A DNA stretch of 64,000 nt. Origin: Bryum argenteum. Lineage: Eukaryota > Streptophyta > Bryopsida > Bryales > Bryaceae. Positions 14,045 through 58,049 of this stretch are shown piece after piece; positions within the stretch are counted from its first letter, which is position 1, and every line of letters starts with the position of its first letter. A model generated the notes under the pieces. It saw only the letters and a program-made list of their open reading frames with translations, ran no database searches and had not been told where the DNA came from. Where the stretch lies: assembly GCA_037043015.1 (NCBI GenBank), contig CM073323.1:26936758-27000757 (forward strand), given 5' to 3'. The position numbers and the translations under genes were made by a program.

Positions 14045-14705
14045 GCTTAAGGGATATCATTCCAATAAACTCATCTCCCCGTAAGTGGAGAACTTCAATC
14101 TCCATATTAATTGAGGTCTTGAGCTTTAATCATGTGATACGGTGCCCAGAGTAATCAATTAAAATATTAAATATTCTTGCATCCATGATGTTCATAGCGT
14201 TCGGCATTGCAGTGAAAAGTTGTGAGCAATATACCCGCCCACCCACAGGCAGCTTCCTATAGCTTCCAAGGTATTGGACTTCAAGCCCATCGCAAGCACT
14301 TGTCCTGACCATCAGCCGGACCTCTCTGCCCCGATCTCTCATCAGTAGCTCGCTCACGTTTTTGTTTCAAGTTTCAGTTAGGTACAAGCTCCAGGTTAGG
14401 AACTATTTTAAAAATCCCTAAATTTATCACTCGCCAGTCTGGAAATCCACCATTTGACTCAAAAAAAATTAAAAAAAAGTTGTGAGCTAAAATGGTTTAC
14501 AAGTCACATAATGGCTTGGTGACATGTAATAACGTCAAACTTGGATAGTTCATCAAGCTTCGGTGGTGACATTTGAGAGGTGATGATGGGTGAGTTTCAT
14601 TCTTGAGGGCACTTTTGCCATGAGCCCCATTTGAATACATCAAGGTGCAATCCATAGTTTATCATATCACTTACTCTTACTCCCTCCTCCTATTAGAGAA
14701 CTTAA

Positions 14706-15556
14706 CCCCTAAAAATCCCTCCGTTTCCTCACCCTCCAAAACCAAAAACTATCATTTTTCACCTTTGTTGGGAAATGGGGAAATGGAGAAACTTTTTATT
14801 CTTGTTTTAGACTTTGAACCGAAAGATCTTGTACCTAACTTGTATAAAAAGGACTAGTTAGAATTCGAACCGTTGGATGTTTGTCATTTGTGAAATCATA
14901 ACAATCAAAGTTTGTCCAACACTTTCTTTTGCCCTTGTCGGAGAGGCATTGTCTAAATGGGTGCCAAGGGCAACTTGATGATTGTTACTCCAAACAATTT
15001 TCCCTCATTTTTTTCCATGTAGTGGAAGGTCTAAAAAAAACAATATAGTAAAACAAGCACCACATATGACGTATCAAGTTTAAGAAAAATTTGGTAGGTG
15101 AGTAGGTGCCTTTATTAGTATGTGAATGGTGAAAAAACAATCTTGGAAAAAATTCAATATCCCAAATTTTGGCAATTTTTGAAAGAAACAATTGTGAATT
15201 TACTAGAAATGATGAAGATTATATTTGAAAGTTTTGGAGGCTGTCCTTGTAAAATTGGTAAACTTTTTGACTTTGAACACTTTGGAATTTGAATATTAAT
15301 TTGGTAATGAACATATTTTTATTAAAAAGAAAAATTCAAAAAAGCTAATTTTAAACTGCCCTGTTTTGGAATTGAAAGCTAAAATTTCTAGATGAAGGTT
15401 TTAAAATAAAAATATGGCTTTGCAAATTATACCACATACACATTACACTATGGGGAGCACCTAGTAAAACTCTTAGCCAAAATATCTATTTAGCTTCTTA
15501 AAATGAGCTGCATGAAATCTCAAAAAACCAAATCGGATTTCTTGGTTTTTTAGGGG
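14706..15556. mobile_element. TTAA-flanked non-autonomous element in U2
   Basis: The ends are inverted repeats starting CCCCTAAAAA, and TTAA is present on both sides (14702-14705, 15557-15560). The empty site in stub U6 (57244-57247) has one TTAA. The interior is AT-rich without a transposase. The same insertion is carried by U3, U4 and U5, so it predates the unit duplications. TTAA duplication with ends starting CCC is the signature of piggyBac-type elements; the assignment is by signature only. Confidence 0.7.
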
Positions 15557-16054
15557 TTAAAGAGCATGCCAAAAGCCTTGGCATATAGAAGGTTATGAAA
15601 GCTTACTACCCGTGTTGATACTTGACGAGCAAGTGATTGAGACGCTAAGTCCCGTCATGAAGTCATACTTACAAAAAGAGGATCTTAATGTGAATAGACT
15701 TCTCCCAAAGTACTTGAAAATTTCATTTTTCTAATATTTTACTTGCAATGCAAACCGGACAATAGTGCACTTATGTAATGGTTATACTAAAGTCTATTAT
15801 ACAAGTTCAATATCAAAAGACTTATATAACAATTCTGTCAATTTATATATGTGCACTTCTATGTCTATTCGTCACCCTTTTTTAGATTCTAAATTCTAGT
15901 TCCCTTGCTCTCAATCAGGTATAGATTTCCAACTTTCCATTTAACTCTTAACTCTTATAAGTAGAGTATATCTTCATTATCTGAACTTTTAAATAGTTCA
16001 GACAGACCGCAGTAGCAAGCTTTCAGGCAGCGGCAGCAGAGTGGTAGAGCTGAG

Positions 16055-16264
16055 ATGCGAGTTGCCACCATCTCTCGGCACATATCACCCGCTTTTTGTT
16101 CAACATCAAATCCATTTCTAATACGAATCCACACGTGACTGGCACAGATCATGGAATTGTTATAAAGTCTTTGTTTATTCCAGCAGGTGAATTCTCAAGC
16201 GTATGGCGATGGCGGAGTTCAAATCAAGGCGGATGTGCGAGATGCTCTGGAGCGAGGTCTCGCT
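16055..16264 (+). pseudogene. 5' exon fragment of pseudouridine-5'-phosphate glycosidase (U2)
   Basis: After an ATG at 16055 the frame reads MRVATISRHISPAF, which looks like an organelle-targeting leader. After a short intron ending CAG at 16186, the frame reads VNSQAYGDGGVQIKADVRDALERGLA and meets a perfect donor GTAAGT at 16265. The last part matches the conserved N-terminus of this enzyme family, where VVALESTII normally follows in the next exon. That exon is not found downstream, so the fragment cannot make enzyme. The position of the first donor is uncertain. Confidence 0.6.
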
Positions 16265-18450
16265 GTAAGTTGCTCTTGAATCAACCATCATATTACATGG
16301 TGCACTCTACCACCTCTCCAAAGCTAAATATCAATTAGTACTCCTTAGGGGTCTCGGGGCACAGCTTGGGGGTGGACAATTGAAAGTGTGTAAAGTTATA
16401 AGGATGTAAGAAAATAGAATGCTTGTAAAGTGTTAAGACTTTATAGTTTCTAGAATGTTATTAACTTGGAGCCTTCAAGATGTTAAACATTTGAAAGCTT
16501 ATAAAACTGTAAAGGATGTTATACAGTGTTGATTGTGAAAATAATTTGTACAAAGGTTGGAATCAACTGTTGTTGAAGATTGATGAATTCCATATTGTTG
16601 ATGAAGTAGGATAGGTGTCAATGAAAGGAGTTTGACTTCAAATGCTTGCAACCGTTTCATGCTCATGGTGGTTTGGGGGTTAGCCTTTGAATTTGTAGTG
16701 TCATAGTGCAATTAGGGAGGAGAGCCGTTGTTGTCCTCTTCTAAGATCATGGGTTACCCGAAACCTCTCTCTCAACCCATTGACCTTAACCAACTATCTT
16801 TATTTACACCAACGTCTACCCCAAACTTTAGCTTAACTCTCCTTGATGGAGAGGCATACCCAAAGTGCCCTTTTGGGCACAGTAAAATTGAAAGTGCATT
16901 AAATCCCCACAAAAGGTTACCACAACAAGATGATAGGATTATGCATCCACCATACAAAATTGAGCAAACAATATTCATTCTGACATTTTTAAGTATCCTG
17001 ACCAAAACCTCAGAAACCCAAATCGGGTTTTTCATACAGTGAGTAAGGGGCTAATTCTTCATATCAAATGAAATATGTCATTAATTATTTTTTCAGCCAT
17101 ATATCGTACTTCCTTAAATTATTATTTACATGTTTGACTTTGATCGAATGGAGAAGGAAGAAATTATTGATGAGAATCAAAGTGATAGTCCATTATTCAG
17201 GGATTGAGTGGTTGATGTAAGGTCAATCAACCTCTTCTTGTGAGTTTGAGGAGTTCATCGGCTAAGTATAAAATCATTGAACAAGTTTTGTTTTGTAATG
17301 TATGAAATTTATTCAAAATAGTATTCAAAATATATTTTGCCATTCTTTGTGTGTTCATTGATTATTTGAGATTAGACAAGTTGTAAATGATATAGTAAGC
17401 ATGGGGCCGCTAAAAATCTCTCCATGTTGAACTTACTTGTTTTTCAAATTGTTCGTCTTTTGGAGATAGTGTATTTTATCTCCATAAGGTGTTCTTTATT
17501 TTAGAGAAGGATGACAAATTGCAAAGACAAGCCAGTTGAAATGTTGTGTTAAGATGAGTTATACTTTATCTAGTCAAGTTGCGCATAACAAAGCTTGCAA
17601 ATTTAATTGAGGACCAAGTCTTGTGGATTGTTACATGCACAAAGCTAGGTAATATATCCATGTAGTGTGCAACACACAAAAGTAAAGAAATGAAGCCGAG
17701 CCAAAAGTTACCCCAAGTTAAATAGAGTTCTTCTCATGTTCCTTGCACATATACTGAAAAAATTAAACTCATAGGCATGAAATTTAACATGTTATATGTT
17801 TGTGACACTTGCTTACCTCCAAAGTTTCAAAGTGCTTAAATGGTTTGGTTTGCCTTTGATCAAGTTCTCATATACTTGAATGACGTTGGGCAATGAAGTT
17901 GAACCCTTTTGCAAATCATAATGTTGTTTTCAAGAGAAATTTACTCCTGAAGTCCAAACAATTACACTAAGAGCACGTTGAAATTTAGTAAGAACTACAA
18001 CATATTTCTTCTTACACTTAAAACTTTCCCAACGTCGAATTAATCAAAAATTCATGAAAAGTTAAAGCTTTACTATTATTTCAAACTCTTCTCAAAAACA
18101 ATTTTACATGTGTATAAGAAATATTGATGTATGTTTTGACCCTCTCTTCTCTTTTCTTTTTCTCCTTATACTAACAACAATTTTCTAATTGACGTCTTTA
18201 TCCTCAAAAAACAACATTCTATATGAATTTTAGTTATTGAAACTTCACATTGGAGGATTTGAGTATTTTCATATTTCAAGGAGCCCCACAATTTACATTT
18301 TAGTATTTGATTAATACTTTGTCCACACATGCAACCATGGGGAGCCTCCAATGTGTTACCTCTAATTGAAGTGCTTTCAGTCCGCAAGTAGTTAAGTGTA
18401 GCATAATAAGTGCCTATTCTTGGTTGTAGCATAATAAGTGCCTATTCTTG

Positions 18451-19555: not shown

Positions 19556-20069
19556 GGATATATATTATTTTCTGCTGAAGTTTTCAGAATTTAGATATGA
19601 ACCTACGTGGGCAACTTCGCATGAGACTGATATTAGATATCACTTTACACTTTTACAGTAAACAAAGTAGATGTTGACACAGGATTGAGCATAAGAGAGC
19701 GGTGCACTCAAGAATTCAACAACTACTTATTTTTCAACTGATAATACACTGATTGCCTCTGGAAAGAAAGGAGGAAGAAAGAAATGTTTTTAAAAATCAA
19801 GAACTCCACCGTGACACAGCCCATGATGCCGCGTCGTGTATTATTGATTTGAGCGCGTCGTGCAAAGCTTCACAAAAACGACCCATGCTATTTGATGCTT
19901 TGTATATTTGATGCTTTGTATATTTAATGAAATACCCACTGCCTAGGTAAACAAAGGTATCGCTGCCACCAGATAATCCTGCTTACAGTAAGTTTGGAAG
20001 TATCAAAATATCATTTTAGTTCAAAGTCGGAAAGTGCTGCTAAGATTCTACTCGGATATTCGGATTTGA
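19556..20069. repeat. Truncated pre-kinase region of U2
   Basis: It matches parts of 8083-9247 of U1, including the 'gtgacacagcccatgatgcc' block. It ends abruptly before the conserved leader and continues directly into U3. This is the remaining upstream end of the deleted kinase copy. Confidence 0.75.
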
Positions 20070-20223
20070 GCTTAAGTGATATCATTCCAAAATGAGCTGA
20101 TCTCCCCGTAAGTGGAGAACTTCAATCTCCATATTAATTGAGGTCTTGAGCTTTAATCATGTGATACGGTGTCCAGAGTAATCAATTAAAATATCAAATA
20201 TACTTGCATCCATGATGTTCATA

Positions 20224-20452: not shown

Positions 20453-20698
20453 TAGCGTTCGGCATTGCAATGAAACGTTGTGAGCTAAAATGGTTTACAT
20501 GTCACATAATGGCTTGGTGACATGTAATAACGTCAAACTTGGATAGTTTATCAAGCTTCGGTGGTGACATTTGAGAGGTGATGATGGGTGAGTTTCATTC
20601 TTGAGGGCACTTTTGCCATGAGACCCATTTGAATACATCAAGGTGCACAGTTTATCGTATCACTTACTCCAACTCCCTCCTCCTATTAGAGAACTTAA

Positions 20699-21631
20699 CC
20701 TCTAAAAATCCAAGCGCTTCCTCACCCTCCAAAAACCAAAAACTATCATTTTTCACCTCTGTCGGGAAAAGTAGGGAAATGAAGAAACTTTTTTTTCTTG
20801 TTTTAGACTTTGAACCGCAAGATCTTGTACCTAACTTGTATACAAAGGGACTAGTTAGAATTTTAACAGTTGAATGTTTGTCATTTGTGAGATCATAAGA
20901 ATCAAAGTTTGTCCAACACTCTTTTTCGCCCTTGTCGGTGAGGCATTGTCTAAATGGGTGCCAAGGGCAACTTGATGATTGTTACTCCAAACAATTTTCC
21001 CTCAATTTTTTCCATGTAGGTAATCAAGTTGGGTATGCTCATGAAAAATTTTAGAGACACATTCCACTTTTTGACCTTAATGTACATTATTTTATGAGAG
21101 AATGTCTAAAAAAAAACAATATAGTAAAACAAGCACCACATATGTCGTATTAAGTTTAAGAAAAATTTGGTAGGTGAGTAGGTGCCTTTATGAGTATGTG
21201 AGTTGTGAAAAAAAAATCTTGGAAAAAATCCAAAATCCCAAATTTTGGCAATTTTTGAAAGAAACAATTGTAAACTTACTAGAAATGATGAAGATTATAT
21301 TTGAAAGTTTTGGAGGTTGTCTTTGTAAAATTGGTAAACTTTTTGACTTTGAATACTTTGGAATTTGAATAATAATTTGGTAATGAACATATTTTAAAAA
21401 AAAGAAAACTTTGAAAAAGCTAATTTTAAACTGCCTCTTTTGGAATTGAAACCTAAAATTTCTAGATGAAGGTTTTAAAATCAAAATTTGGCTTTGCAAA
21501 TTTTCACCACATACACATTACACTATGGGGAGCACCTAATAAAACTCTTAGCCAAAATATCTATTTATCTTCTTAAAATGAGCTGCATGAAATCTCAAAA
21601 AACCGAACCGGTTTCCTTGGATTTTTAGGGG
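20699..21631. mobile_element. TTAA-flanked non-autonomous element in U3
   Basis: Paralogous copy of the U2 element at 14706. TTAA lies at 20695-20698 and 21632-21635. Here the inverted repeats are clearest: CCTCTAAAAATCCAAG on the left against CCCCTAAAAATCCAAG from the right. It is about 80 bp longer than the U2 copy, mainly from a block near 21019-21105 missing in U2. Confidence 0.72.
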
Positions 21632-22138
21632 TTAAAGAGCATGCAAATAGCCTACGCATATAGAAGGTTGTGAAAGCTTACTACCCGTGTTGATTCTTAA
21701 CAAGCAAGTGTTTGAGACGCTAAGCCCTGTCATGAAGTGATACTTAGGAAAAGAGGATCTAAAGGCATGAATAGACTTCTCCCAAAGTACTTGAAAATTT
21801 CATTTTTCTAATATTTTACTTGCAATGCAAACCGGACAATAGTGCACTTATGTAATGGTTACACTAAAGTCTATTATACAAGTGCAATATCACAAGACTT
21901 ATATAACAATTCTGTCAATTTATATATGTGCACTTCTATGTCTATTCGTCACCCTTTTTTAGATTCTAAATTCTAGTTCCCTTGCTCTCAATCAGGTATA
22001 GATTTCCAACTTTCCATTGAACTCTCAACTCTTAACTCTTATAAGTAGAGTATATCTTCATTATTTGAACTTTTAGATGGTTTAGGCAGAACGCAGTCGC
22101 AAGCATTCAGGCAGCAGCAGCGGGGTGGTAGAGCTGAG

Positions 22139-30293: not shown

Positions 30294-32867
30294 TTGTCAA
30301 CATATTACATAGGAATGTTGTTCTTTCGTGTTTTTGAATGGAGGGTGTTCACCGTGAAGGTGTATATATAAGGATGTTTTATAAAGTTTTCTTTCTATTC
30401 TTAAGATAGCCACAATTATGAATGGTGTTTGAGTAAATCAAAATAGAAGAATTTATGATCGTTTGCTTCACTATATGCTTATTAAGCCTTGGAGGGATTG
30501 ACTCGTTTCCAGTAAAAACAACACAGTTGGAAATAAATGTAGTTGGGCGAAAGCGCACTAATTGTTATGTGAATTTGTACTATCCCCTTATAAAACATAA
30601 ACTTTGTACTTTTGTGATTTTTTGGAAGACTGTGATGTAATATAATGTGAAAAAGGTGTAAAAATACATATTTAGAAGTGTTGCCGATATTTTTTGAAAT
30701 GAAGTACAATGAATTTATAATATTCATAAGTAATGTCATTGTTGGCCCTCAAAAAATTAGTACTTTAGAATTGAGATCTAAATTGGGCCTTGAAGTTGGT
30801 TACTTCTTGAAAAATCTGATTGTGACGTACTAGTCTTCCACCCTAGCATGCGTTTGCCCAGTTATTCATTACTTGTAGTATACTTATTGTATGTCTTGTT
30901 CACCAAAAATGACATTGCACACTGATTACAAAGTCATGACGTATGAGTATTCAAAAGACATCACAATATCTCAACAATTGCACTTTTGAATGAAAATGCT
31001 AGGAATACACTTACAAGATTTATTTGGGCTTAGATAATAGCCTTGCAACTATGAAACTTTTCATAAATTTTACAATGGAAATATTTCAAAAACTAGGCTT
31101 GTTGCACAAAAACAAATACCATAACTTCCCCTCATTTTCAATGGATTTAACTCATTTAAGGGCTCCACTACAAAGACTAGATCAAATTTGGAATCCAATC
31201 TAACAAACAAAGTTGACGCCAACGGTGGAAAATTAGAAACATCTTCTCAAAAATCAAGTAATTTATACACTCTTTTCAAGATAGAAAAGAGTGTACAACA
31301 AACATCACTGCACAACAAACTTCTACTTTACTCAGAAAAAGAATCCTTTAACTACAAAGATGTTGGATTTCATCTTGAGATCATAGTTATGCAAAAAAAA
31401 CTCCATGAAAACTAAATTGAATTCTCATGAAGTGTTCTAAGAAATTAACCTCCATGAAGTGATCTAAGAAATTAGCCTTGCAACGATGGAATCATTCTCA
31501 GAGTTTACAATGGAATTATTACAAAAACTAGGCACATTGTACAAAAATGGATACCATTACTTCCACACATCTTCGATAGATTTAAGCTTTCTACTACAAA
31601 GACTAGATCAAATTCGGAATCCAATCTAACGAAAAAAAGTTGAAATCCAACGGTGGAAGATAAGAAAGTATTTCTCATAAACCAAGGAATTTATATAGTC
31701 TTCTCAAGATAGAAACATCCTTGCAAAACCAACACCTAATTTATTCAAAACAAAAATCTTCCAACTACATAGTTGTTGGATATCATCTTGAGATCATAGT
31801 TATATGAACAAAAAACCATGAGAACTAAAATGAATGGTAAAACATGCTCCATGTAGAAAAACTGGCCAATAACAAGAGTTGCCTTCACTAAAATGCACAC
31901 CATCAATTTTGCACTTTATTTTATGAGGTTGCAATTTTTAGCACACAAACTAAACTTAATTTGGGACCCAACCTAGGTGATTTCATACAAAATGGAATTT
32001 GGATAAAGAAGCTCTTTTCTCTTCAAAGTTGGTGCATGTCATCCAAAAATGTTGTTTTCTTGATATTTAGCCGTGTGAGGTTTAACAAAATTAAATATGT
32101 GCATATTAAAAGACCATCACGGTTTCAAAATAGTTAGCCTTTTTGGGGCAATTTTAGGTGTACTTTATACACTTAACCCTTAAGCGGGCCGAATGTCGAA
32201 AAACGACATTTTGGATGACAGAAACTTTGGAGAGCCATAACTTCTTCATCCGGACTCCGTTTTGGACGAAATCACTTGGGTTGGGTCCCAAATCAAGTCT
32301 AGTTCATGTCATAAAAATCTCAGACCCATAAAATGAAGTATGAATTAATGGCATGCATTTCAGTGACAGCAGCCTAGTTTTAGACATTTTTTCCTTTGTA
32401 AAATTTAGGGCAGTTTTCACCATTGCAGGGCCATAATTTGCACAAAGAAATTTTTCTCATAGTTTTTTTTTGTTCAAGGATGCTACTGAGATGAAGGTGA
32501 ACAACATTCTAATTGGTGGCTTTTTCATTGCAATAAGTCTAATGGTAGCATTTTCACTTTAAAGTGAAAATGATGAAATTATGTGATCATTTTTGAGTAT
32601 TAATACATTATGATCTCGCAATCTATGAAGCCTCATGACTCAAAATTTGACCCACTTGATGTTCAATATGTCTACGACAAGATTGTACGGTTGAGATTTG
32701 GATAACACACTTTTACCTCCACCTATGACAATGCTTTTGAGGATGTGTTCATTTTACTACAAATGAGTCAAACCATTTAGGGGTTAAAAGACAAATCAAC
32801 TCATTTCTAAAATCCACATATTAAAAGAAAAGAAGACTTTCTAAACCATATTCTTCAGCTTAAGGAA
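30294..32867. other. Spacer downstream of kinase copy 2
   Basis: AT-rich, matches 12085-14044. It carries the TTAA element at 32177-32783 as an insertion. No gene is supported; the open frame at 31188-31415 is shared with copies at 12993 and 43861 but has variable ends and no recognisable domain. Confidence 0.6.
32177..32783. mobile_element. TTAA-flanked element, second type, 607 bp
   Basis: Absent from the matching site in U1, U4 and U5 (about 13973, 44833, 56788), which has one TTAA. Here TTAA stands on both sides (32173-32176, 32784-32787). The ends are CCCTTAAGCGGGCC and, from the right, CCCCTAAATGG. A perfect subterminal hairpin AATGTCG/CGACATT follows the left end (about 32192-32210). 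The interior is related to 57477-58045. No transposase. Confidence 0.7.
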
Positions 32868-33258
32868 TTTCATTCACATAAACTCATCTCCCCATAAGTG
32901 GAGGACTTCAATCTCCATATTAATTGAGGTCTTGAGCTTTAATCATGTGATACGGTGCCCAGAGTAATCAATTAAAATATTCAATGTACTTGCATCCATA
33001 ATGTTCATAGCGTTCGGCATTGCAGTGAAAAGTTGTGAGCTAAAATGGTTTACATGTCACATAATGGCTTGGTGACATGTAATAACGTCAAACTTGGATA
33101 GTTCATCAAGCTTCGGTGGTGACATTTGAGAGGTGATGATGAGTGAGTTTTATTCCTGAGGGCACTTTTGCCATGAGCCCCATTTGAATACAACAAGGTG
33201 CAATCCATAGTTTATCATATCACTTACTCCAACTCTCTCCTCCTATTGGGGAACTTAA

Positions 33259-34179
33259 CCCCTAAAAATCCAAGCGCTTCCTCACCCTCCAAGAAACCAA
33301 GAACTACCATTTTTCACCTCTGTTGGGAAATGGGGAAATGGAGAAACTTTTTTTTCTTGTTTTAGACTTTGAACCGTAGGATCTTGTACCTAACTTGTAT
33401 ACAAAGGACTAGTTAGAATTTTAACCGTTGGATGTTTGTCATTTGTGACATCATAACAAACAAAGTTTGTCCAACACTTTTTTTTGCCCTTGTTAGAGAG
33501 GCATTGTCTAAGTGGGTGCCAAGGGCAATTTGATGATTGTTACTCCAAACAATTTTCCCTCATTTTTTCCCATGTAGGTAATTTAGTTGGGTATGCTCAT
33601 GAAAAATTTTAGAGACACTTTCCACTTTTTGACCTTGATGTACATTATTTTATGAGAGAAGGTCTAAAAAAAACAATATAGTAAAACAAGCACCACATAT
33701 GACGTATTAAGTTTAAGAAAAATTTGGAAGGTGAGTAGGTGCCTTTATGAGTATGTGAATTTTGTAAAAAAAATCTTGGAAAAAATCCAAAATCCCAAAT
33801 TTTGGCAATTTTTGAAAGAAACAATTGTAAAACTACTAGAAATTGTGAAGATTATTTTTGAAAGTTTTGGAGGCTACCCTTGTAAAATTGGTAAACTTTT
33901 TGACTTTAGACACTTTGGAATTTGACTAATAATTTGGTAATGAACATATTTTCAAAAAGATATACTTCAAAATAGCTAATTTTAAACTGTTTGTTTTGGA
34001 CTTGAAACATAAAAATTCTAGATTAAGGTTTTAATATCAAAATTTGGCTTTGCAAATTTTACCATACATACAGAATACACTATGGGGAGCACCTAGTAAA
34101 ACTCTTAGCCAAAATATCAATTTATCTTCCTAAAATGAGTTGCATGAAATCTCAAAAAACCAAACCGTTTTCCTAGGGG
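33259..34179. mobile_element. TTAA-flanked non-autonomous element in U4
   Basis: Paralogous to the U2 and U3 copies. TTAA lies at 33255-33258 and 34180-34183. The left end CCCCTAAAAATCCAAGCG is intact. The right end has lost a few bases, reading CCTAGGGG, so the inverted repeat is damaged. Confidence 0.7.
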
Positions 34180-34734
34180 TTAAAGAGCATGCAAATAGCC
34201 TACGCATAAAGAAGGTCATGAAAGCTTACCATCCGTGTTGATACTTGACGAGCAAGTGTTTGAGACGCTAAGCCCCGTCATGAAGTGATACTTAGGAAAA
34301 GAGGATCTAAATGTGAATAGACTTCTCCCAAAGTACTTGAAAATTTCATTTTTCATATTCTTTACCGACGGTGCAAACAGGACAATAGTGCACTTATGTA
34401 ATGGTTATACCTAAGTCTATTATACAAGTTCAATATCAAAAGACTTATATAACAATTCTGTCAATTTATATATGTGCACTTCTATGTCTATTCCTCACCC
34501 TTTTTTAGATTCTAAATTCTAGTTCCCTTACTCTCAATCAAGTATAGATTTCCAACTTTCTATTGAACTCTTAACTCCCACTACAAGGATATATGTGACC
34601 TGATTGACAAAACACTGACGTAATTCGGTCAACTGTCCTGTCAATTAGGAGACCCTGATTCGGTCACTTATTAACAAAAACATGTCGATTCGGCTGTCAA
34701 ATCGGACAAGACTACACGTCAGCAAGTTCTTATG

Positions 34735-34906
34735 GTGAGAGGAAAAAAAAATACATTTTTTCCGCTGCCCGAATTTTTTGGGCAATAGTTACTTTCAAAA
34801 AGCTCTCCAGCGATTCCAGGCCGATTACTGCGGAAGCCCCGCACCTCGCCGGAATCGAACTCGGGACCCCGTACTTCCAAACCACTACCTTACCAACCCG
34901 CCCTCC
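34735..34906 (-). mobile_element. tRNA-related (SINE-like) segment inside the CACTA element
   Basis: On the minus strand a B-box-like GAGTTCGATTCC lies at 34851-34862, with an A-box-like GGTTGGTAAGGTAGTGG about 30 bp before it (34883-34899). This is the spacing of an internal RNA polymerase III promoter. The segment runs into a T-rich tract near 34740. No clear target duplication was found, so a degraded tRNA or tRNA-derived SINE are both possible. Confidence 0.45.
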
Positions 34907-34964
34907 ATTCAACTCAATAAATAAGGAATTTGTTTCAACTATATAGACTTGTTGTTTTCAAACT

Positions 34965-35314
34965 CAGCAGACTTTGGCGGCCATTTTGACATAGTAAAAC
35001 AACTTTTTTCAAAAACCTTTAGACTAAGAAAAGCTGGTAAATCAAGTTACGTTTCATCTCCAAAAATCCTTTTGTCATTTAAACCATCCATTCAAAAGTT
35101 ATAGACAAAATTCAAAGAGGGTGTTTGAAAATATCAAAAAAGAAAATTCCTTGCTACCCCTCTTTGAATTTTGTCTATAACTTTTGATTGGAGGCTTTAA
35201 ATGACAAACGAATTTTTGGAGATGAAACTTTACTTGGTTTACAAGCTTTTTTTATCCTAAATTTTTTTGAAAAAAACTATTCTACTATGACAAAATTCTT
35301 GCTAAAGTCTACTG
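34965..35314. repeat. Long foldback with arms of about 155 bp
   Basis: The arm 34965-35121 is the reverse complement of 35158-35314 with scattered mismatches, and the loop is 36 bp. The inner ends (CAAAGAGGG / CCCTCTTTG) match perfectly. A transcript through it would fold into one long hairpin. It lies entirely inside the CACTA element. Confidence 0.75.
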
Positions 35315-35458
35315 ATTTTTTTTAAATCCCTAAATGACCTTCACGCCCCCATGCGGCTTCTAGAAGTAGAAAGTGAGAAAATTATGGTTCTTGGGCTGTG
35401 AATTATAGGATGACATGTAAATGTTGGGTATTTTTCAAGTTTTGTTAACCCCAAACTG

Positions 35459-36021
35459 TCCGTGTGTGTTTTTGGGAGCTCAAAACCTTGAAACTACGAT
35501 TTTCTACCTCTATGCATTCCCAAGGCTGTAAACCAAAGTTATTTCTTTTTTTGAAACTTCCAACCGAAAGATCTTGTACTTAAGACTATTTTTAGTTATT
35601 TTTCAAAAAATGAACCGTTGGATGTTTACCATTTGCAAGATCATAACATCCAAAGTTTGTCTCCCAAGCTTTTTTGGGCATTGTCAAGATTGGTTTGGAA
35701 ACTTTGGAGGCTGCCCTTGTAAAATTGGTAAACTTTTTGACCAAGAGCCCTTAGGAACTTAAGTAGTACTTTGGTTATGAACATAATTCCAATTCTTCTT
35801 TAAAAACCTAAATTTAAACTGCCCGATCTTGGCTCGCACATCGATAATTGCCCTAGAATATTCAAAAATTGAAATTCCACTTTGCAAATTTTACCACACC
35901 CACTTTGCAGTATAAGGAGCGCCAAGTAAAAATATTAGACAGAAAATATTACCTTCAACACCTTTATCTAGGTTGCCCGAAATTGCAAAAACCCATTTCG
36001 GGCTCCAAGGACGGTTAGGGG
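35459..36021. mobile_element. TTAA-flanked element nested in the CACTA element, 563 bp
   Basis: TTAA flanks both sides (35455-35458, 36022-36025). The ends start CCCCAAACTGTCC and, from the right, CCCCTAACCGTCC. The interior, for example around 35560-35660, aligns by eye with the large elements of U2-U5 (shared 'ccgaaagatcttgtac' and 'gaaccgttggatgtt' blocks). It is therefore an independent insertion of the same family. Confidence 0.7.
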
Positions 36022-36320
36022 TTAAGTGCCCCCATTTTAGCAATTCCACGCTGGTCAAAAATAAAAAAGTTGACAAGAAGTTGACAAGGAGTTGACGAAA
36101 ACATTTATAATTTCCAAAGTGACAGAAGTTGGGCTGCAAGCCTGCGACTTCGTCATTTTGAACATTTTCTTGTCAACTATTGGTCATATCGGGCCCTATT
36201 TCCTTGTAGTGTCCTAACTCTTATAAGTAGAGTATATCTTCATTATATGAACTTTTAAATGGTTTAGGCAGACTACAGTGGCAGACTTTCGAGCAGCAGC
36301 AGCGGGGTGGTAGAGCTGAG

Positions 36321-43240: not shown

Positions 43241-45102
43241 TAATTGTTGTGTGAATTTGTACTATCCTTCTTATAAAACATAAACTTTGTACTTTTGTGT
43301 TTTTTGGAAGATTGTGATGTAATGTAATGTGAAAAAGGTGTAAAAATACATATTTAGAAGTGTTGCCTATATTTTTTGAAATGAAGTACAATGGATTTAT
43401 AATATTCATTAGTAATGTCATTATTGGCCCTCAAAAAATTAGTACTTTAGAATTGAGATCTAAATTGGGCCTTCAAGTTGGTTACTTCTTGAAAAATCTG
43501 ATTGTAACGTACTAGTCTTCCACCCTAGCATGCTTTTGCCCAGTTATTCATTACTTGTAGTATACTTATTGTATGTCTTGTGCACCAAAAGTGACATTGC
43601 ACACTGATTACAAAGTCATAACGTATGAGTATTCAAAAGACATCACAGTATCTCAACAATTGCACTTTTGAATGAAAATGCTAGGAATACACTTACAAGA
43701 TTTATTTGCGCTTAGATAATAGCCTTGCAACTATGAAACTTTTCTTAAATTTTACAATGGAAATATTTCAAAAACTAGGCTTGTTGCACAAAAACAAATA
43801 CCATAACTTCCCCTCATTTTCAATGGATTTAAGGGTTCCACCACAAAGACTAGATCAAATTTGGAATCCAATCTAACAAACAAAGTTGACGCCAACGGTG
43901 GAAAACTACATCTTCTCAAAAATCAAGTAATTTACACTCTTTTCAAGATAGAAAAGAGTGTACAACGAACATCACTGCACAACAAACTTCTACTTTATTC
44001 AGAAAAAGAATCCTTCAACTACAAAGTTGTTGGATTTCATCTTGAGATCATAGTTATGCAAAAAAACTCCATGAAAACTAAATTGAATTCTCATGAAGTG
44101 TTCTAAGAAATTAACCTCCATGAAGTGATCTAAGAAATTAGCCTTGCAACGATGGAATCATTCTGAGAGTTTACAATGGAATTATTACAAAAACTAGGCA
44201 CATTGTACAAAAATGTATACCATTACTTCCACACATCTTCGATGGATTTAAGCTTTCTACTACAAAGACTAGATCAAATTCGGAATCCAATCTAACGAAA
44301 AAAGTTGAAATCCAACGGTGGAAGATAAGAAAGTATTCCTCAAAAACCAAGCAATTTATATAGTCTTCTCAAGATAGAAACATCCTTGCAAAACCAACAC
44401 CTAATTTATTCAAAACAAAAATCTTCCAACTACATAGTTGTTGGATATCATCTTGAGATCATAGTTATATGAACAAAGAAACATGAGAACTAAAATGAAT
44501 GGTAAAACATGCTCCATGTATAAAAACTGGCCAATAACAAGAGTTGCCTTCACTAAAATGCACACCACCAATGTACACTTTATTTTATGATTTTGCAATT
44601 TTTAGCACACAAACTAAACTAATTTGGGACCCAACCGAGGTGATTTCATTTAAAATGGAATTTGGATAAAGAAGCTCTTTTCTCTTCAAAGTTGTTGCAT
44701 GTCATCCAAAAATGTTGTTTTCTGATATTTAGCTGTGTGAGGTTTAACAAAATTAAATATGTGCATATTAAAAGACCATAACGGTTTCAAAATAGTTAGC
44801 CTTTTTGGGGCAATTTTAGGTACTTTATAAACTTAAAAGACAAATCAACTCATTTCTAAAATCCACATATTAAAAGAAAAGAAGACTCTCTATACCATAT
44901 TCTTCAGCTTAAGTGATTTCATTCCCATAAAGTCATCTCTTCATAAGTGGAGAACTTCAATCTCCATATTAATTGAGGTCTTGAGCTTTAATCATGTGAT
45001 ACGGTGCCCAAAGTAATCAATTAAAATATTAAATATACTTGCATCGATGATGTTCATAGCGTTCGGCATTGCAGTAAAACGTTGTGAGCTAAAATGGTTT
45101 AC

Positions 45103-45507: not shown

Positions 45508-45720
45508 TACAAGTCACATAATGGCTTGGGGACATGTAAAAAAGCCTAACTTGGATAGTTTATAAAGCTTCGGTGGTGACATTTGAGAGGTGATGATGGG
45601 TGGGTTTCATTCTTGAGGGCACTTATGCCATAAGCTCCATTTTAATACAACAAGGTGCATAGTTTATCTTATCATTTACTCCAACTCCCTCCTCCTATTA
45701 GAGAACTTAACCCCTATTAA

Positions 45721-46631
45721 TCCAAGCGTTTCCTCACCCTCCAAAACTAAAAACTATCATTTTTTACCTCTGTTGGGAATGGGGAAATATAGAAACGTTT
45801 TTTCTTCTTATTTTAGACTTTGAACCGTAAAATCTTGTACCTAACTTGTATACAAAGGGACTAGTTAGAATTTTAATAGTTGGATGTTTGTCATTTGTGA
45901 GATTATAACAATCAAAGTTTGTCCAACACTTGTTTTTGCCCTTGTTGGAGAGGCATTGTCTAAATGGGTGCCAAGGGCAACTTGATGATTGTTACTACAA
46001 GCATTTTTCTGTCATTTTTTTCCATGTAGGTAATCAAGTTGGGTACGCTCATGCAAAATTTTACAGACACATTCCACTTTTTGACCTTAATGTACATTAT
46101 TTCATTAAAAACAACAATATAGTAAAACAAGCACCACATATGTTGTATTAAGTTTAAGAAAAATTTGGTAGGTGAGTAGGTGCCTTTATTAGTATGTGAA
46201 TTGTGAAAAAAAAAATCTTGGAAAAAATCCAAAATCCCAAATTTTGGCAATTTTTGAAAGAAACAATTGTAAAGTTACTAGAAATGATGAAGATTATATT
46301 TGAAAGTTTTGGAGGTTGTCCTTGTAAAATTGGTAAACTTTTTGACTTTGAACACTTTGGAATTTGAATAATAATTTGGTAATGAACGTATTTTAAAAAA
46401 AAAGAAAACTTTAAAAAAGCTAATTTTAAACTGCTTGTTTTGGAATTGAAACCTAAAATTTCTAGATGAAGGTTTTAAAATCAAAATTTGGCTTTGCAAA
46501 TTTTCACCACATACACATTACACTATGGGGAGCACCTAATAAAACTCTAAGCCAAAATATCTATTTATCTTCTTAAAATGAGCTGCATGAAATCTCAAAA
46601 AACCGAACCGGTTTCCTTGGATTTTTAGGGG
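45721..46631. mobile_element. TTAA-flanked non-autonomous element in U5
   Basis: Paralogous to the copies in U2-U4, with TTAA at 45717-45720 and 46632-46635. The right end CCTTGGATTTTTAGGGG is intact; the left end reads CCCCTATTAATCCAAG with two changes. Confidence 0.72.
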
Positions 46632-47135
46632 TTAAAGAGCATGCAAATAGCCTACGCATATAGAAGGTTGTGAAAGCTTACTACCCCTGTTGATACTTAA
46701 CAAGCAAGTGTTTGAGACGCTAAGCCCCGTCATGAAGTGATACTTAGGAAAAGAGGATCTAAAGGCGTGAATAGACTTCTCCCAAAGTACTTGAAAATTT
46801 CATTTTTCTAATATTTTACTTGCAATGCAAACCGGACAATAGTGCACTTATGTAATAGTTATACCTAAGTCTATTATACAAGTTCAATATCAAAAGACTT
46901 ATATAACAATTCTGTCAATTTATATATGTGCACTTCTATGTCTATTCGTCACCCTTTTTTAGATTCTGAATTCTAGTTCCCTTACTCTCAATCAAGTATA
47001 GATTTCCAACTTTCTATTGAACTCTCAACTCTTAACTCTTATAAGTAGAGTATATCTTCATTATTTGAACTTTTAGATGGTTTAGGCAGACCGTTGTCGC
47101 AAGCATTCAGGCAGCAGCGGGGTGGTAGAGCTGAG

Positions 47136-47352: not shown

Positions 47353-48229
47353 GTAAGTTGCTCTTGAATTAACCATCATATCTCATGGTGCGCTCTACCA
47401 CCTCTCCGAAGCTAAATATCAATTAGTACTCCTTAGGGGTCTCGGGGCACAGCTTGGGGGTGGACAATTGAAAGCGTGTAAAGTTGTAAGGATGTAAGAT
47501 AATTGAATGCTTGTAAAGTGTTAAGACTTTATAGTTTCTAAAATGTTATTAACTTGGAGCCTTCTAAATGTTAAACATTTGAAAGCTTATAAGATTGTAA
47601 GGATGTTACACAGTGTTGACTGTGTAAATAATTTGTACAAAGGTTGGAATCAACCATTGTTGAAGATTGATGAATTCCATATTGTTGATGAAGTAGGATA
47701 AGTCTCAATGAATGGAGTTTGAATTCAAATGCTTGCAACCGTTTCATGCTCATGGTGGTTTGGAGGTTAGCCTTGGAATTTGTAATCTCATAGTGCATTT
47801 AGACTGAGGAGAGTTGTTGTTCTCGACTTCTAAGTTCATGGGTTACCCGAAACCCCTTCATAAACCCAATGACCCTAACTAACTATCTTCACTTACTCCA
47901 ACGTTTATCCCAAACTTTAGCTTAGCTCTCGTTGATGGAGAGGCATGCCCAAATTGCCCTTTTACGCACAGTAAAATTGAAAGTGCATCAAAAGATGGAA
48001 AAAGATGTACTTGACATCAATTATTTTACCACATTTAGATGATAGGATTATGCAGATGTCCATCGTAAAATATTGAGTAGAAGATATTAATTCTAACATT
48101 TGTTTAAGTGGCCTGACCAAAACCTCATAAGCCTGAATACGGTTTTTTAGACGGTAAGGGTTAAACTTTCCATAGATACCAAATGAAATATGTCATGAAA
48201 GTCATTTATTATTTTTGAAGCCATATACA

Positions 48230-52512: not shown

Positions 52513-53975
52513 AGGTATCACTGTACTGTAAACAAAGCAAATGTTGACACAGGATTGAACAAAAGAGAGCGGTGCACTTAAGAATTCAACAACTATTTAA
52601 TTTTTCAACTGAAAACACACTAATTGCCTCTAGAAAGAAAAGAAGAAGAAGGAAAGAAATTTAAAAAAAAATCAACAACTCCACCGTGACACAGCCCATG
52701 ATGCCGCGTCGTCTATTATTGATTTGAGCGCGTCATGCAAAGGTTGACAACCCATGCTGTATATTTTATGCTTTAAACCAAATAAATACCCACTGCCTTC
52801 GAAAATAAAGGCATCAATTCCACCAGATATTCCTGCCGACAGAAAGTTCCAAAGAATCAATATACTATTTTAGTTCAAAGTCGGAAAGTGCTGCTAAGAT
52901 TCTCCTCGGATATTCGGATTTGACAAGGCTTCGTGCTTACCTTCTCGCCTTTCGTGCACCTGGCATCTAGAACTCGTTAACCTTGCCAGCATCTCCAGCA
53001 CATTTGTTGACCTCTTCCCAAGGTACGGCTTCCTCCTTCATCCTCCTCCTACAGACTCCTTGCGAACATCTTCCTACATGTTTACTGCCGGCGTGCTGCA
53101 TAAGCCCCTCATTTCTGCTCTGGAGGTTGAAAGTCCAGCTTTCCGTTGGAGCAAGATACTGCCATCATTTGAGGAGTTTTGCCGGCCTGCTTTGTGAAGC
53201 TGGTCACTGAAGTAGGCGCTGGCGCCTTGGCTTGTGTTTTGCGGTATCGTACGAGCTTCGACTTGTGGCGCTTTCTTTCGCTTGCGGTATTCTGCAAGCC
53301 TCGGTATCTCATATCGTTCATCACGCACAACTCATCTGGGCGGACGATTGATCCTAGCCTGTTATTCGAGCACGGCATTCCAGGTACGACTAGTTCAAGG
53401 TGTCACAAGCTTTTGCATGTAGGTCGACTATTGTCCCAGAATATGTCGGCTAATATGGATTAGTGCTGGCTCGGTGCATTGGAGCAGGAACCCCCTGCGT
53501 TCGGTACTGTCATCTGTGTAGTGGAAGTTGAAGGTCTCTAGCGTTATTTCTTACTCGCTCATACAGCACTCGGCAGGAGCGAGGAATAATCATCAGCATA
53601 AGAAGAGAAGCTTGGCTCTGTGAAGATGGATTGCTGATGTTGGCGCTTTGGCTTGTGGTAATCAATACGAGCCTCAGGTTTCTTGTGGAGTCCATCTCGT
53701 ATCCGGTCTTCACGTTCGATTTGTCTGCACAGAGAATATTCTTATCCTTACATCTGAGCACAACTTTTCCAGGTGAGATTGATTCACCCAGTAACAAGCG
53801 TCTGGTCGCGGATTGTCTTTCCTGATCGGAACATGTGTCACGTTTGAGGGTTAGGAGTTATTCATTTCCGAATGCCTGTTCGCATTCTGAGACGTTGGAT
53901 CTTATGTTTTCGTAGGATTACGTCAGGAATTAAAGGGCTACAATTGATAAGCGTAGTGAGTACGCATCGAGTATC

Positions 53976-55748
53976 ATGGAGGGCTCAAGTGAGTGCGAAT
54001 TTCTCTCTGCTCAGTCGGTGGTTGCGACCGTGTCTGCTACTGCTTCTTCGAGCACGCAATATGAGAGTGCAGAAGATGAGAGCATGCTGGAGAGTGAGAG
54101 CCTGTCTAGCAGCATGTTGCAAGAGAGGATTGACGCATCGAAGTTGCACTGGAGTGAGCTGTCGGATAGTGATCGCAGCTTGAGCGGGGTGGAAGTGGCA
54201 GCAGATAACAGGGAAGTCTTCAGGACTCTGCAGTCGCATCCGGAATGGGGTCGCTTCTTTTGGACATTTGATGAGAAGTCACGTCGAACATTGGTGGTGG
54301 GTGAGAAGTTTGCAGAGGGTGGGCAAGCCGAGCTTTTCAAGGCCTATGTCACTTGGAATGATCCAGTTTACAGGCAATATGACTTGGAGGACAATGTGAA
54401 GTTTGTGTTGAAGGTTTTTAAGGAAGGCACTTTGTTACGGGATTTACAAGGACAATGGCCCCATGGATTTTTGAAATGGGAAAGTGATGAATATAATCGA
54501 GCGAGGAATCAATTGCAAATGACGTCAAGTCAATTTCATCGTAATTTCCTCGTATGTGGGACAATATTAAAGAGTGGGAGATTTGCATTCTTGATGACAA
54601 TGCATGATGAGGATCTGCAGAGCTTAATCCAACGACGGATGCATGGACAAAAATATGGGCGGGGACCACTTTCAAAGAAGGAAAGTGAGGCAATTATGTA
54701 CAAGATTGGACTTGGGGTGTTATGGTTACATGAGCATGATGTTGTGCACAGAGACCTCAAGGCCGCTAATGTACTATGTAGCAAGAATGGACGTTGTTGT
54801 GTGGCGGATTATGAGTGTTCGATTGGTGTGATAGGAACAGGGTATTGGAGGGCTCCTGAAATATTGCATGCTTGCAAATGTAAGACCGTAAATCGGAAGC
54901 TAGAGTTGTTTTCGAAAGCAGCAGATGTTTATAGTTATGGAATGATATGGTATAAGCTCTTGTCTGGGAAGTCCCCATTTGAAGGTGAAATGGTGACAAT
55001 GGAATCGGTTATTGAAGGGCAACGACCGACACTGCCAACATATGTAGATGATTGGACAAAAGAATTTCTACATAGATGTTGGGACTCTACTCCTAGTGAA
55101 AGACCTATAATTCAATAGATCTTGAGTGTTATTGCATTAAATACAAGTATGCAATGGATCAAAGATTGGGATGAGGTGCGGATGAGGACAAAGGTAATGG
55201 ACATTATAGAGTACCAACTTGGATGTGACAACCTTTCACACACGGCCACAAGACTTGAACGTGGAAACTTCAAGTGCTTATTGTGTTTTGAAGTGTATTC
55301 ATACATGATGAAGTGTACAACATGTACGGACCACTATCTTCATTCAAGATGTGCAATCGTAGAGGGATTCTTCAATTCTTCTTCACATGTACATCAATTG
55401 AGAATGCATCCTCCAAGGTGGAGGAGTAGTTCAAGATTGGTATGTGATGGTTGCCAATTGGAAATTGGCAAGGAATTTTGGTATCAATGCCCAGTTGCAG
55501 AGTGCGATTTCGATTTGCACCTAGAATGTGCTAAATATGTGAAAAGGATTTTACATCCCTCACACAAGGAGCACAAGTTAGTGCTTTCTTCAAGCTCTTC
55601 ATCAACTAGTTTGAAAGATTCAAGTGTCACTTGTGTGTGTTGCAAACTCCAAATCAAATCCATGGAGTTTAAATATCATTGTAAAGAGTGTGTATTCTAC
55701 ATACATCCAAAATGCGCTGTACCAAATGTGAAGGTACATAGGTGTTGA
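53976..55748 (+). pseudogene. Kinase-DC1 copy 4, kinase and zinc fingers separated by a stop
   Basis: The frame is open from 53976 to a TAG at 55116-55118 (codon 381). This gives a 380-residue protein with loop, lysine, HRDLKAAN, DYE, APE and nearly all of the kinase C-lobe. The same frame continues open from 55122 to 55748 (208 codons) with the DC1 modules, the first of which is shortened by six bases near 55290. The kinase-only product might still fold. I call it a pseudogene because the same stop is in copy 3, which is clearly dead, but a truncated functional kinase is possible. Confidence 0.78.
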
Positions 55749-56871
55749 TTGTCAACATAATACATAGAAATGTTGTTCTTTTGTGTTTTTGAATGGAGGG
55801 TGTTCACCGTGAAGGTGTATATATAAAGATGTTTTATGAAGTATTTTTCTTTCTATTCTTAAGATAGCCACAATAATGAATGGTGTTTGAGTAACTCAAA
55901 ATAGAAGAATTTATGATTGTTTGGTGCACTCCATGCTTATTAAGCTCTGGATGGATTGACTCGTTTCTAGTAAAAACAACACATTTTTAAAAATGATTCC
56001 ATCATTGAAAATAATCGTAGTTGGGTGAAAGCGCACTAATTTTTGTGTGAATTTGTACTATCCCCCTTATAAAACATAAACTTTGTACTTTTGAGGTTTT
56101 TTGGAAGACTGTGATGTAATGGAATGTGAAAAAGGTGTAAAAATACATATTTAGAAGTATTGCCGATATTTTCTGAAATGAAGTACAATGGATTTATAAT
56201 ATTCATAAGTAATGTCATTATTGGCCCTCAAAAAATTAGTACTTTAGAATTGAGATCTAAATAGGGCCTTGAAGTTGGTTGCTTCTTGAAAAATCTGATT
56301 GTAACGTACTAGTCTTCCACCCTAGCATGCTTTTGCCCAGTTATTCAATTTAAGAGAGTAAAACTTTGAAAATCAATATAAAATGTAATTTCTATTATTA
56401 GTAATTGGAAATTGCTATGATTGGCTGAAATCACATATTACATGATAAAATGGAGAGAGGCCACAAGTAACCTATGAGGAACCTTATTAGTTTCCCGAAA
56501 TAGTAAGTTTTCTTACACTAAGAAAACTTTGCCCTGTTTGTGTTTGAAGGCTTATTCTGAACAATCTATGAATCCAAACGCGGTTCTGTAAATTGGATGT
56601 GGTTCCCAACTTATCAAACTTCTGGAATGTTAAAAAAATTCCAAAAAAAATCTTTTTCAATCCAGGTACAGCTCCTCAAAATTCGGGATCGACCATAAAA
56701 TGGTCGATTGGGCTCGTAGGGGTTAAAAGACCATCGCGGTTTCAAAATAGTTAGCCTTTTTGGGGCAATATTAGGTACTTTATAAACTTAAAAGACAAAT
56801 AAACTCATTTCTAAAATCCACATATTAAAAGAAAAGAAGACTCTCTAAACCATATTCTTCAGCTTAAGGGA
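55749..56871. other. Spacer downstream of kinase copy 4, partly replaced
   Basis: Unit homology runs to about 56345, then unrelated AT-rich DNA follows to 56722, where a TTAA element end rejoins unit sequence at the position matching about 13907. No gene is supported. Confidence 0.55.
56345..56722. mobile_element. Right end of a TTAA element, left end not found
   Basis: The right end read inward is CCCCTACGAGCCCAATCGAC, followed by a subterminal hairpin TCGACCAT/ATGGTCGA (about 56689-56707). TTAA stands at 56723-56726, and the uninterrupted site in U1 and U4 is a single TTAA. The left edge has been lost together with about 1.2 kb of unit sequence. Confidence 0.5.
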
Positions 56872-57335
56872 TTTCATTCCCATAAAGTTATCTCCCCATA
56901 AGTGGAGAACTTCAATCTCCATATTAATTGAGGTCTTGAGCTTTAATCATGTGATATGGTGCCCAGAGTAATCAATTAAAATATTAAATATACTTGGAAC
57001 CATGATGTTCATAGCGTAGTGAAAATATTTGAGCTAAAATGGTTTACAAGTCACATAATGGCTTGGTGACATGTAATAACGTCAAATTTGGATAGTTTAT
57101 CAAGCTTCGGTGGTGACATTTGAGAAGTGATGATGGGTGAGTTCCATTCTTGAGGGCAATTTTGCCATGAGCCCCATTTTAATACAACAAGGTGTATGGT
57201 TAATGATGTTACATACTCCAACTCCCTTCTCCAATTAATCAACTTAAAGAGCATGCAAAGAGCCTAGGCATACAAGAGGCTCAGAAAGCTTAGAACACGT
57301 GTTCAAACCCCACAAGCAAGTGTTTGAGACGATAA
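56872..57335 (+). repeat. Array stub U6
   Basis: It matches the first 400-500 bp of a unit and then, after 57247, the sequence that lies to the right of the large TTAA element in U2-U5. The TTAA element itself is absent; a single TTAA stands at 57244-57247. Homology ends near 57335 and marks the right border of the array. Confidence 0.75.
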
Positions 57336-57476
57336 GTTGTTGTCGTCTTAAGTTTACGGTTTCAATCTCAGCTTTACAACAAAGTTAGTCATGCAAGTGA
57401 TTTGTTGTGTCTTGGAGTTTTTTGGAACCTTAACAAAGTTGTACTAAAAGTAACTCAAAAATCTTGGACCCTTTAA

Positions 57477-58045
57477 CCCATTGACTCTGAGTAGCTCTAT
57501 TCCTTCCACTATTGGTAATCATTTTTATTTTATTTTTATTTCCAATTTTAACCTAGTTTATGTAGCCCTCTTTTTAGCTCAATTTAAGATGTGATATATA
57601 TATATATGGCATTCATTCTAGTACACGGGATTTAGTTCAGGACTCAATTTCCTTTATAGCATTTGAAGCGTTTTTCATCATTGCCTAGATTTTTTTTTAA
57701 TGATTTTCTTTGTACAACTGTGTACTTGAGAAAAATGTGAATATCATTTTAGTTGGAAGTTTTTACTTGCAATTGTTAGTAGCAACTCCATTCTAAAGTG
57801 AAATTGATGAGATCTTGCAATCTTTTCCAAGTTCTAGCACATTGTAACCTCACAATCTATGAGGCCTCCACATTTGGCCCGCATAATTTACAATAAGATA
57901 ACAACATAATTATGCAACAAAGATCTAAATAGCTCACATTCAAATACAAATATGGGTGTTGAAAAGATGTTTCTCCACCAAAAATACCCCTAAATCTTTG
58001 AGGATTACAGTCAACAAATAGAATCTTATTAATTAGTATGTAGGG
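57477..58045. mobile_element. TTAA-flanked element, second type, degraded, 569 bp
   Basis: TTAA lies at 57473-57476 and 58046-58049, with CCC and GGG next to them. The middle and right parts resemble 32400-32660 by eye (shared 'aaagtgaa.ttgatga' and 'aatctatgargcct' blocks). The terminal inverted repeat is weak. No empty site is available for proof. Confidence 0.5.
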
Positions 58046-58049
58046 TTAA

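Follow-up and report, generated by a model that had tools for sequence, protein, structure and literature searches.

Short TTAA-flanked elements in the moss Bryum argenteum and their probable piggyBac relatives bearing transposases

Described piggyBac elements and their likeness to the moss elements

PiggyBac is best known from insects and serves as a genome-engineering tool, and ends starting with CCC are a feature of the insect elements. Duplication of TTAA also occurs in Kolobok and Sola3. The T. ni piggyBac (PDB 6x67, 6x68) shares with the elements described here the TTAA target and its duplication, the CCC ends, a PF13843 transposase with three catalytic aspartates, a C-terminal cysteine-rich motif and asymmetric ends, while its sequence similarity to the moss elements (5.5–5.8 kb) is only remote. 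In the available part of one study (PMC7351741), the left end of this element carries a palindrome over bp 17–33, which recurs here in one end of some elements; its asymmetric ends are termed enigmatic, and its transposase is of 594 aa. The open reading frames (ORFs) of the moss, measured from stop to stop, are longer, at 887 and 910 aa, and their N-terminal part is long. The piggyBat element of Myotis (PDB 9c0f) was the top PDB match of one moss ORF (L071), with the cysteine-rich C-terminus aligned; however, an excerpt of PMC8086355 describes simple 15-bp terminal repeats for piggyBat, in contrast to the inset palindromes of family A and of two moss transposase elements.

Plants are named as piggyBac hosts in PMC8086355 and PMC10813416, and a review passage (PMC10004981) lists piggyBac among the superfamilies of angiosperm MITEs, which are short non-coding elements like those of the moss; that passage gives no transposase source for them, whereas one is present in the moss genome. 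The parts of two repeat tallies at hand count 1230 piggyBac entries (122,417 bp) in Ceratopteris (PMC6890710) and a single entry of 75 bp in Stipa (PMC8319324). No report of an endogenous moss piggyBac appeared in titles or abstract openings among the matches listed in the open-licence literature. As far as these partial sources go, endogenous piggyBac elements of land plants are thinly documented.

Elements within the window

The window, that is, the whole analysed stretch of 64,000 nucleotides, contains three short non-coding families (A, B and C), bounded by TTAA and starting with CC(C), as well as one solo end (D); a further candidate (E) is weak (Table 1). That the plant is a moss is also indicated by one plastid gene, PsaB. 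The word TTAACCC was observed 16 times against 8.52 (sd 3.02) expected, and 16 or more were reached in none of 100 shuffles; the words at 48158–48164 and 62078–62084 had no partner in the window. MITEs of the window lie within a cluster of kinase genes and within a CACTA element.

Table 1 Features of the window and transposase-bearing elements elsewhere in the genome (window positions unless a contig is given)
Feature	Position	Strand	Remarks
Family A, copy 1	14702..15560 (TTAA to TTAA)	+	Non-autonomous; ends CCCCTAAAAATCC...TTTTTTAGGGG
Family A, copy 2, next tandem unit	20695..21635 (TTAA to TTAA)	+	Same ancestral insertion; left end CCTC
Family A, copy 3, third unit	33255..34183 (TTAA to TTAA)	+	Same ancestral insertion; query for genome-wide search
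Family A, copy 4, fourth unit	45707..46635 (TTAA to TTAA)	+	Same ancestral insertion
A-less site, further tandem unit	57244..57247	.	Single TTAA
Family B element	32173..32787	+	TTAA both sides; ends CCCTTAAGCGGGCCGAATGTCG...TTTAGGGG
B-less sites, three other units	13971-13974, 44833-44836, 56788-56791	.	Single TTAA each
Family C element	35445..36025	+	TTAA both sides; ends akin to A and transposase-bearing elements
CACTA-type element with C as cargo	34579..36211	+	Ends CACTACAAGG...CCTTGTAGTG; TCC flanks
Element D, right end	56623..56726	-	End at 56722, then TTAA 56723-56726
D-less sites	13906-13909, 32106-32109, 44768-44771	.	Single TTAA each
Element E, decayed candidate	57473..58049	.	TTAA and CCC/GGG at both sides
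Transposase-bearing element	C3:11945956-11951424		5.5 kb; TTAA both ends
Transposase-bearing element	C8:14124498-14130255		5.8 kb; TTAA both ends; 428 bases between L071 and L080 unread

The four copies of family A go back to a single insertion event common to four tandem units. The initial annotation had listed an ancestral site, three further insertions and a likely fifth; the left boundary of C lies at 35449 instead of 35459. In the case of D, no left end was recognised, and so it is regarded as a solo end and not as a full copy. The proposed fifth site at 57477 is retained as the decayed candidate E, which showed 71% identity to B across 185 bp. TTAA on both sides, as had been described for every full copy, holds for A, B and C; their ends start with CCC, except in the second A copy, and carry short inverted repeats.

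Uninterrupted targets with a single TTAA had been reported at three sites, and we found them in paralogous units for A, B and D. The BLAST matches at two of the B-less sites (13971-13974 and 44833-44836) overlap by exactly 4 bp. These empty sites may be ancestral rather than products of excision. For C, no empty site was found in the window, because this element is nested in a CACTA-type element that is present in one window unit only.

Copies and transposases elsewhere in the genome

Searching the genome for further copies and their flanks, as the initial annotation had proposed, bore out the TTAA signature. TTAA stood directly before exact A ends in 420 of 431 cases and before exact B ends in 351 of 366. 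Among 30 fetched A loci (two of which, L031 and L032, represent a single insertion), 26 had TTAA on both sides; the other four had CTAG/CTAG (L037), ATAA/ATAA (L059), TTGA/TTAA and TTAA/TCAA, one each. The target duplicated on insertion is thus of 4 bp and mostly TTAA. The A copies are 86–92% identical to the window copy, and all 40 scored full-length places of B, the query counted, are 99–100% identical. The C copies were also considered as independent TTAA insertions, which was rejected: their outer flanks are identical in 30 of 30 fetched loci, since they are carried inside copies of the CACTA element.

At least 116 matches to the piggyBac transposase domain PF13843 (116 scored among 775 candidates; best E-value 7e-82) were detected in the genome, distributed across contigs C1 to C11, and none in 14 control genomes. 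Every scored match was above the cut-off and the majority were stop-free in the matched stretch. Stops are present in some of them. For one transposase stretch, the 40 scored places, among them the query, all showed 99–100% identity, and four of them, on four contigs, reached the full score. The description of all copies as non-autonomous is therefore correct for the window and does not extend to the genome, where transposase-bearing copies exist.

The longer relative that had been called for was found in the elements on C3 and C8, whose ends align with A and C on both sides, with a homology of about 70–76%. The C8 element is inserted in a B copy, where its flanks read ATGTA-TTAA and TTAA-TACTCAA; the window B has a single TTAA at the same point, and thus TTAA was duplicated around the C8 element. 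Of two other transposase lineages, one has four copies with 3′ ends in which TTAA is followed by CCCTTAAACGCCC or a near variant of it, and the other has two copies with TTAA followed by CCCCTCAAGGCCC; in both, homology ends at TTAA or within 2 bp of it. The lineages are about 31–44% identical to each other. None of the transposase-bearing elements found has ends identical to those of A, B or C, and the end homology seen for A and C was matched by no transposase partner identified for B, D or E. L073 and L076 are decayed, with no recognisable paired ends, and a TTAACC end 3′ of L081/L082 was absent from the 1 kb read on that side. A candidate left end of L061/L062/L065, TTAACCCCAAATTCC, was discarded because it is coding. 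Pairing A ends with nearby transposases by coordinates (by eye, with 100 of 420 A ends listed) was unconvincing, as the orientations conflict.

When compared with PDB sequences at E-values up to 0.001, the L071 ORF matched solely piggyBat (9c0f, the best match, E = 3e-26) and the T. ni piggyBac, and D268, D346 and D447 of the latter each align with an aspartate. The elements with homologous ends are thus predicted to encode a piggyBac-family transposase with a DDD triad. In a motif scan of 15 ORFs, several of which are broken or cut, the second aspartate was recovered in 12 and the third in 7; the first-aspartate pattern, which was overly strict, was recovered in none, although the residue is visible in the L071 alignment and in other translated ORFs. 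The C-terminal cysteine-rich motif was present in 9 of the 15, and most of the remaining six stop short of its expected position. Perhaps the moss transposase has an extra N-terminal exon, which is suspected upstream of the C3 ORF. A single-sequence structure prediction of the L071 ORF (mean pLDDT 34.4) was left out of the argument.

Some elements appear to be asymmetric, with a palindrome centred on bp 25 at the gene-upstream end and, at the other end, one lying about 22 bp further inside. The bp-25 palindrome scored 8/8 in the C3 element, 6/8 in the C8 element, 6/8 in B and 7/8 in D, each at one end, and at least 6/8 at the A right end in 26 of the 27 loci recovered from the 30 fetched; in random sequence it occurred 297 times in 50,000. 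C scored 4/8, and the palindrome was absent from E and from another six ends, all of them 3′ or opposite ones. In a de-duplicated scan with one representative per cluster (177 TTAACCC words, many of which may be chance or coding), at least 6/8 at bp 25 was reached in 1 of 38 clusters, with one 49-member cluster represented by C appearing to include A ends too. There is no overall enrichment, which counts against the generality of this palindrome.

Alternative explanations and proposed activity

We are all but certain that the elements in the window are non-autonomous, MITE-like members of piggyBac and that autonomous-type elements with a DDD transposase reside elsewhere in the same moss nuclear genome. 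Assignment to another TTAA superfamily, Kolobok or Sola3, is highly improbable: the duplication by itself does not distinguish these from piggyBac, and B, D and E are without an identified transposase, but the longer elements that share end homology with A and C encode PF13843 transposases, whose PDB matches are to piggyBac and piggyBat only. Even less probable are MITEs of Tc1/mariner (Stowaway) or PIF/Harbinger (Tourist) with a TA or TWA duplication at sites where TTAA is merely favoured. If all sites were TTAA, T-TA-A could be read as a TA duplication; however, the CTAG/CTAG and ATAA/ATAA loci repeat all four bases, which refutes both TA and TWA as far as two loci can, and the coding relatives are piggyBac. 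Contamination by animal or fungal DNA deserves equally little credence. Animals are where piggyBac is best documented, but the 116 places are spread over 11 contigs, those of C3 and C8 being of 30.6 Mb and 18.5 Mb, and related MITEs lie within the kinase gene cluster of the window and in the CACTA element.

It is also unlikely, though less so than the foregoing, that the elements are fossils without recent movement. The divergence of the A copies and the stops in some transposase matches would fit this, but the 40 places of B and the 40 of the transposase stretch, with their near identity, do not; from the latter, movement appears to have been recent. The piggyBac reading of the initial annotation is hence supported by TTAA flanks throughout the genome and by transposase-bearing relatives. 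TTAA and the CCC ends make it probable that B, D and E belong to the same superfamily, as does the bp-25 palindrome in the case of B and D.

By analogy with insect piggyBac, the encoded DDD transposase would cut at the CCC ends and TTAA hairpins may form after cleavage; insertion at TTAA would duplicate it and excision would leave a single TTAA behind. It is probable that a piggyBac transposase of this genome mobilises the window MITEs, and piggyBac may be active in the moss at present.

On balance, we lean slightly towards a picture in which the moss houses a diverse endogenous piggyBac community with large MITE bursts, which has moved recently and may still do so, and in which some elements keep insect-like lopsided ends. 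If this is true, end asymmetry would be an ancient functional property of piggyBac and not a quirk of insects, and the moss would be a source of plant-native transposases. Many open transposase frames, copies that are nearly identical and plentiful MITEs in a moss would extend the known range of piggyBac and, besides offering this plant-native source, would give an independent way to approach the asymmetric ends.

TTAA-bounded elements in the window and in the genome

The window contains short non-coding TTAA-flanked elements of three families (A, B and C), one solo end (D) and one weak decayed candidate (E), with element boundaries verified by eye, by aligning unit against unit and by script. 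The word TTAACCC was counted 16 times where 8.52 would be expected, and none of 100 shuffles produced as many; two of the words, at 48158-48164 and 62078-62084, have no partner end and may represent chance occurrences or solo ends. Repeated tandem units, at a unit-to-unit spacing of about 12-18 kb, extend over 5095-57247. Protein kinase and C1 domains were detected in one intact window ORF, and the kinase/C1-domain genes of the units differ in state, with 10306-12084 open over 592 aa and the ORFs of other units shorter.

Positions of the elements in the window and of the transposase-bearing elements on contigs C3 and C8
Feature	Position	Remarks
Family A	14702-15560; 20695-21635; 33255-34183; 45707-46635	
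Family B	32173-32787	
Family C	35445-36025	
D, right end	56623-56726	
E	57473-58049	
CACTA-type element	34579-36211	ends CACTACAAGG...CCTTGTAGTG, TCC flanks; carries family C
C3 transposase element	C3:11945956-11951424	5469 bp including both TTAA; entire length read
C8 transposase element	C8:14124498-14130255	5758 bp; 428 bases between loci L071 and L080 unread

Family A is a single insertion common to four units, and a further unit without it has one TTAA. Family B occupies one unit, with a single TTAA at the corresponding site of three others, while D, of which one end only is present, has uninterrupted TTAA at three sites. The window spans C3:26936758-27000757 in a genome of 258.8 Mb in 25 contigs. 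The 114,600 bp contig C12, with two full-length PsaA/PsaB matches without stops, is taken as the plastid contig, and the genome as that of a plant. A PsaB piece of 466 aa gave 1082.9 bits against PDB 7ksq, 6l35 and 8htu, all from the moss Physcomitrium patens, 1068.2 against 9lut and no more than 1045.5 against the remaining chains, flowering-plant ones among them, in the best 60 of 170 matches; on this basis the genome is taken to be that of a moss. In the genome, 40 of 3869 first-look candidates for family A, which are not copy numbers, were scored and 30 loci were fetched, including two (L031 and L032) that represent one ancestral insertion. The right ends of L043 and L052 were taken by direct reading of the locus sequence. 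TTAA was identified on both sides in 26 loci; the exceptions were CTAG/CTAG (L037), ATAA/ATAA (L059), TTGA/TTAA (L055) and TTAA/TCAA (L052). As CTAG and ATAA are each present on both sides, the duplication covers all four bases. Exact 22-base ends numbered 431 for A, with TTAA preceding 420 and not 11, and 366 for B (351 and 15, respectively); the backwards-read patterns of these ends, with or without TTAA, gave no matches in all four genome searches. The initial annotation's observation of a single TTAA at uninterrupted sites of paralogous units was confirmed, here for A, B and D, and its expectation of TTAA flanks on nearly all genome copies was supported by the exact A and B ends and the fetched A loci.

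The 30 fetched family C copies (40 scored, 96-100% identical) all had the same outer flanks and are thus carrier copies rather than 30 TTAA insertions. The CACTA class appears to have amplified this piggyBac-type MITE (short non-autonomous element) as cargo.

Transposase genes and the elements that bear them

Searching the genome for the piggyBac DDE domain (PF13843) gave 775 first-look candidates; all 116 that were scored were above the cut-off (best E 7.4e-82), the majority with no stop codon interrupting the match, and none of 14 control genomes had a match. Non-autonomy, which the initial annotation assigned to all copies, holds for the window elements and not for the genome, where a transposase source is plentiful. 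Fifteen transposase loci were read, and the stop-to-stop ORF over the domain was at least 887 aa in seven of them, three of which continue past the end of the locus; in the other eight it was broken or did not reach this length. Identities were about 31-44% across lineages and 51-98% inside groups, and Pfam found PF13843 alone in five ORFs. Against PDB sequences, the ORF of transposase locus L071 matched piggyBat (3e-26) and Trichoplusia ni piggyBac (6.6e-26), with an aspartate aligned at each of D268, D346 and D447, the T. ni active site according to PMC7351741 (numbering confirmed by script for D268 and by counting for D346 and D447). Upstream of the C3 transposase ORF, the minus strand of L079 is open from an ATG at C3:11950858, starting with METSTNRASK, and this stretch may represent an additional first exon.

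The C3 and C8 elements were delimited by retrieving the sequence at the margins of two transposase loci; both start with CCCCTAAGTGCCC on the gene's 3′ side and with CCCCTAACTGCCC at the opposite end. The left part of family A (up to 371) showed about 70-74% identity to their 3′ subterminal part and family C about 73-76% to both sides, with higher identity in short 44-bp subterminal matches. In end alignments of six sequences from A, C and the transposase elements, three of which are A copies of one insertion, 43/121 and 59/143 columns were invariant. A longer transposase-bearing relative, which the initial annotation proposed to look for, was found for A and C, with homologous rather than identical ends; none was found for B, D or E. 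The C8 element is itself inserted within a family B copy (99.5% over 184 bases), with TTAA on both sides versus one in the window's B. In two further lineages, represented by 3′ ends only, homology ends at or within 2 bp of the junction of TTAA and CCC (4 and 2 copies).

In L065 (3496-4113), A/C-like sequence lies immediately next to the TTAA that bounds a transposase element, and another GGGG end precedes the left TTAA in L054; from these arrangements, elements seem to reuse one another's TTAA. Beside the C3 element lies a small element (L077, 44-145) with CTCCCTCTGTCCCA ends adjoining TA, which we take to be Stowaway-like.

Palindromic repeats at the ends

According to PMC7351741, bp 17-33 of the insect piggyBac left end form a palindromic repeat bound by a dimer of the C-terminal domain. 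In the C3 (8/8 pairs) and C8 (6/8) elements, a 17-base palindrome centred on bp 25 was identified on the side upstream of the transposase gene. The B left end (6/8) and the D right end (7/8) have one as well, as does, with at least 6/8, the family A right end in 26 of 27 recovered loci (3 of 30 not recovered); 297 of 50000 random window 17-mers score at least 6/8. The opposite ends of the C3 and C8 elements have a palindrome at bp 47 (7/8), for which the control is loose (137 of 5000 random 100-mers reach at least 7 anywhere in bp 9-60), and the best palindrome of family A left ends was at bp 46.5 (6/8) in 22 of 29 recovered. The bp-25 palindrome was not seen in C (4/8) or E, and only one of 38 clusters of the 177 TTAACCC words scanned, with one representative each, passed at bp 25. 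It is therefore a feature of some families.

Recency and origin of the elements

A 1149-bp C8 transposase stretch had 205 candidates, and the 40 scored places, query counted, were 99-100% identical, including four full-score matches (on C8, C4, C2 and C1). Family B likewise gave 40 scored full-length places at 99-100% identity, query counted (5817 candidates), whereas the other 29 fetched family A loci were 86-92% identical to the window copy; judged by this divergence, family A is older than both.

The window elements are piggyBac-type and, in the window, non-autonomous: the TTAA target with its duplication, the homologous ends of A and C, the catalytic residues and the near-identical copies were all observed. 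B, D and E would probably also belong to the piggyBac superfamily. The genome's piggyBac transposases would mobilise the window MITEs, presumably through hairpin chemistry and with precise excision, and the system may be active at present. The moss genome holds a plentiful and recently expanded transposase source.
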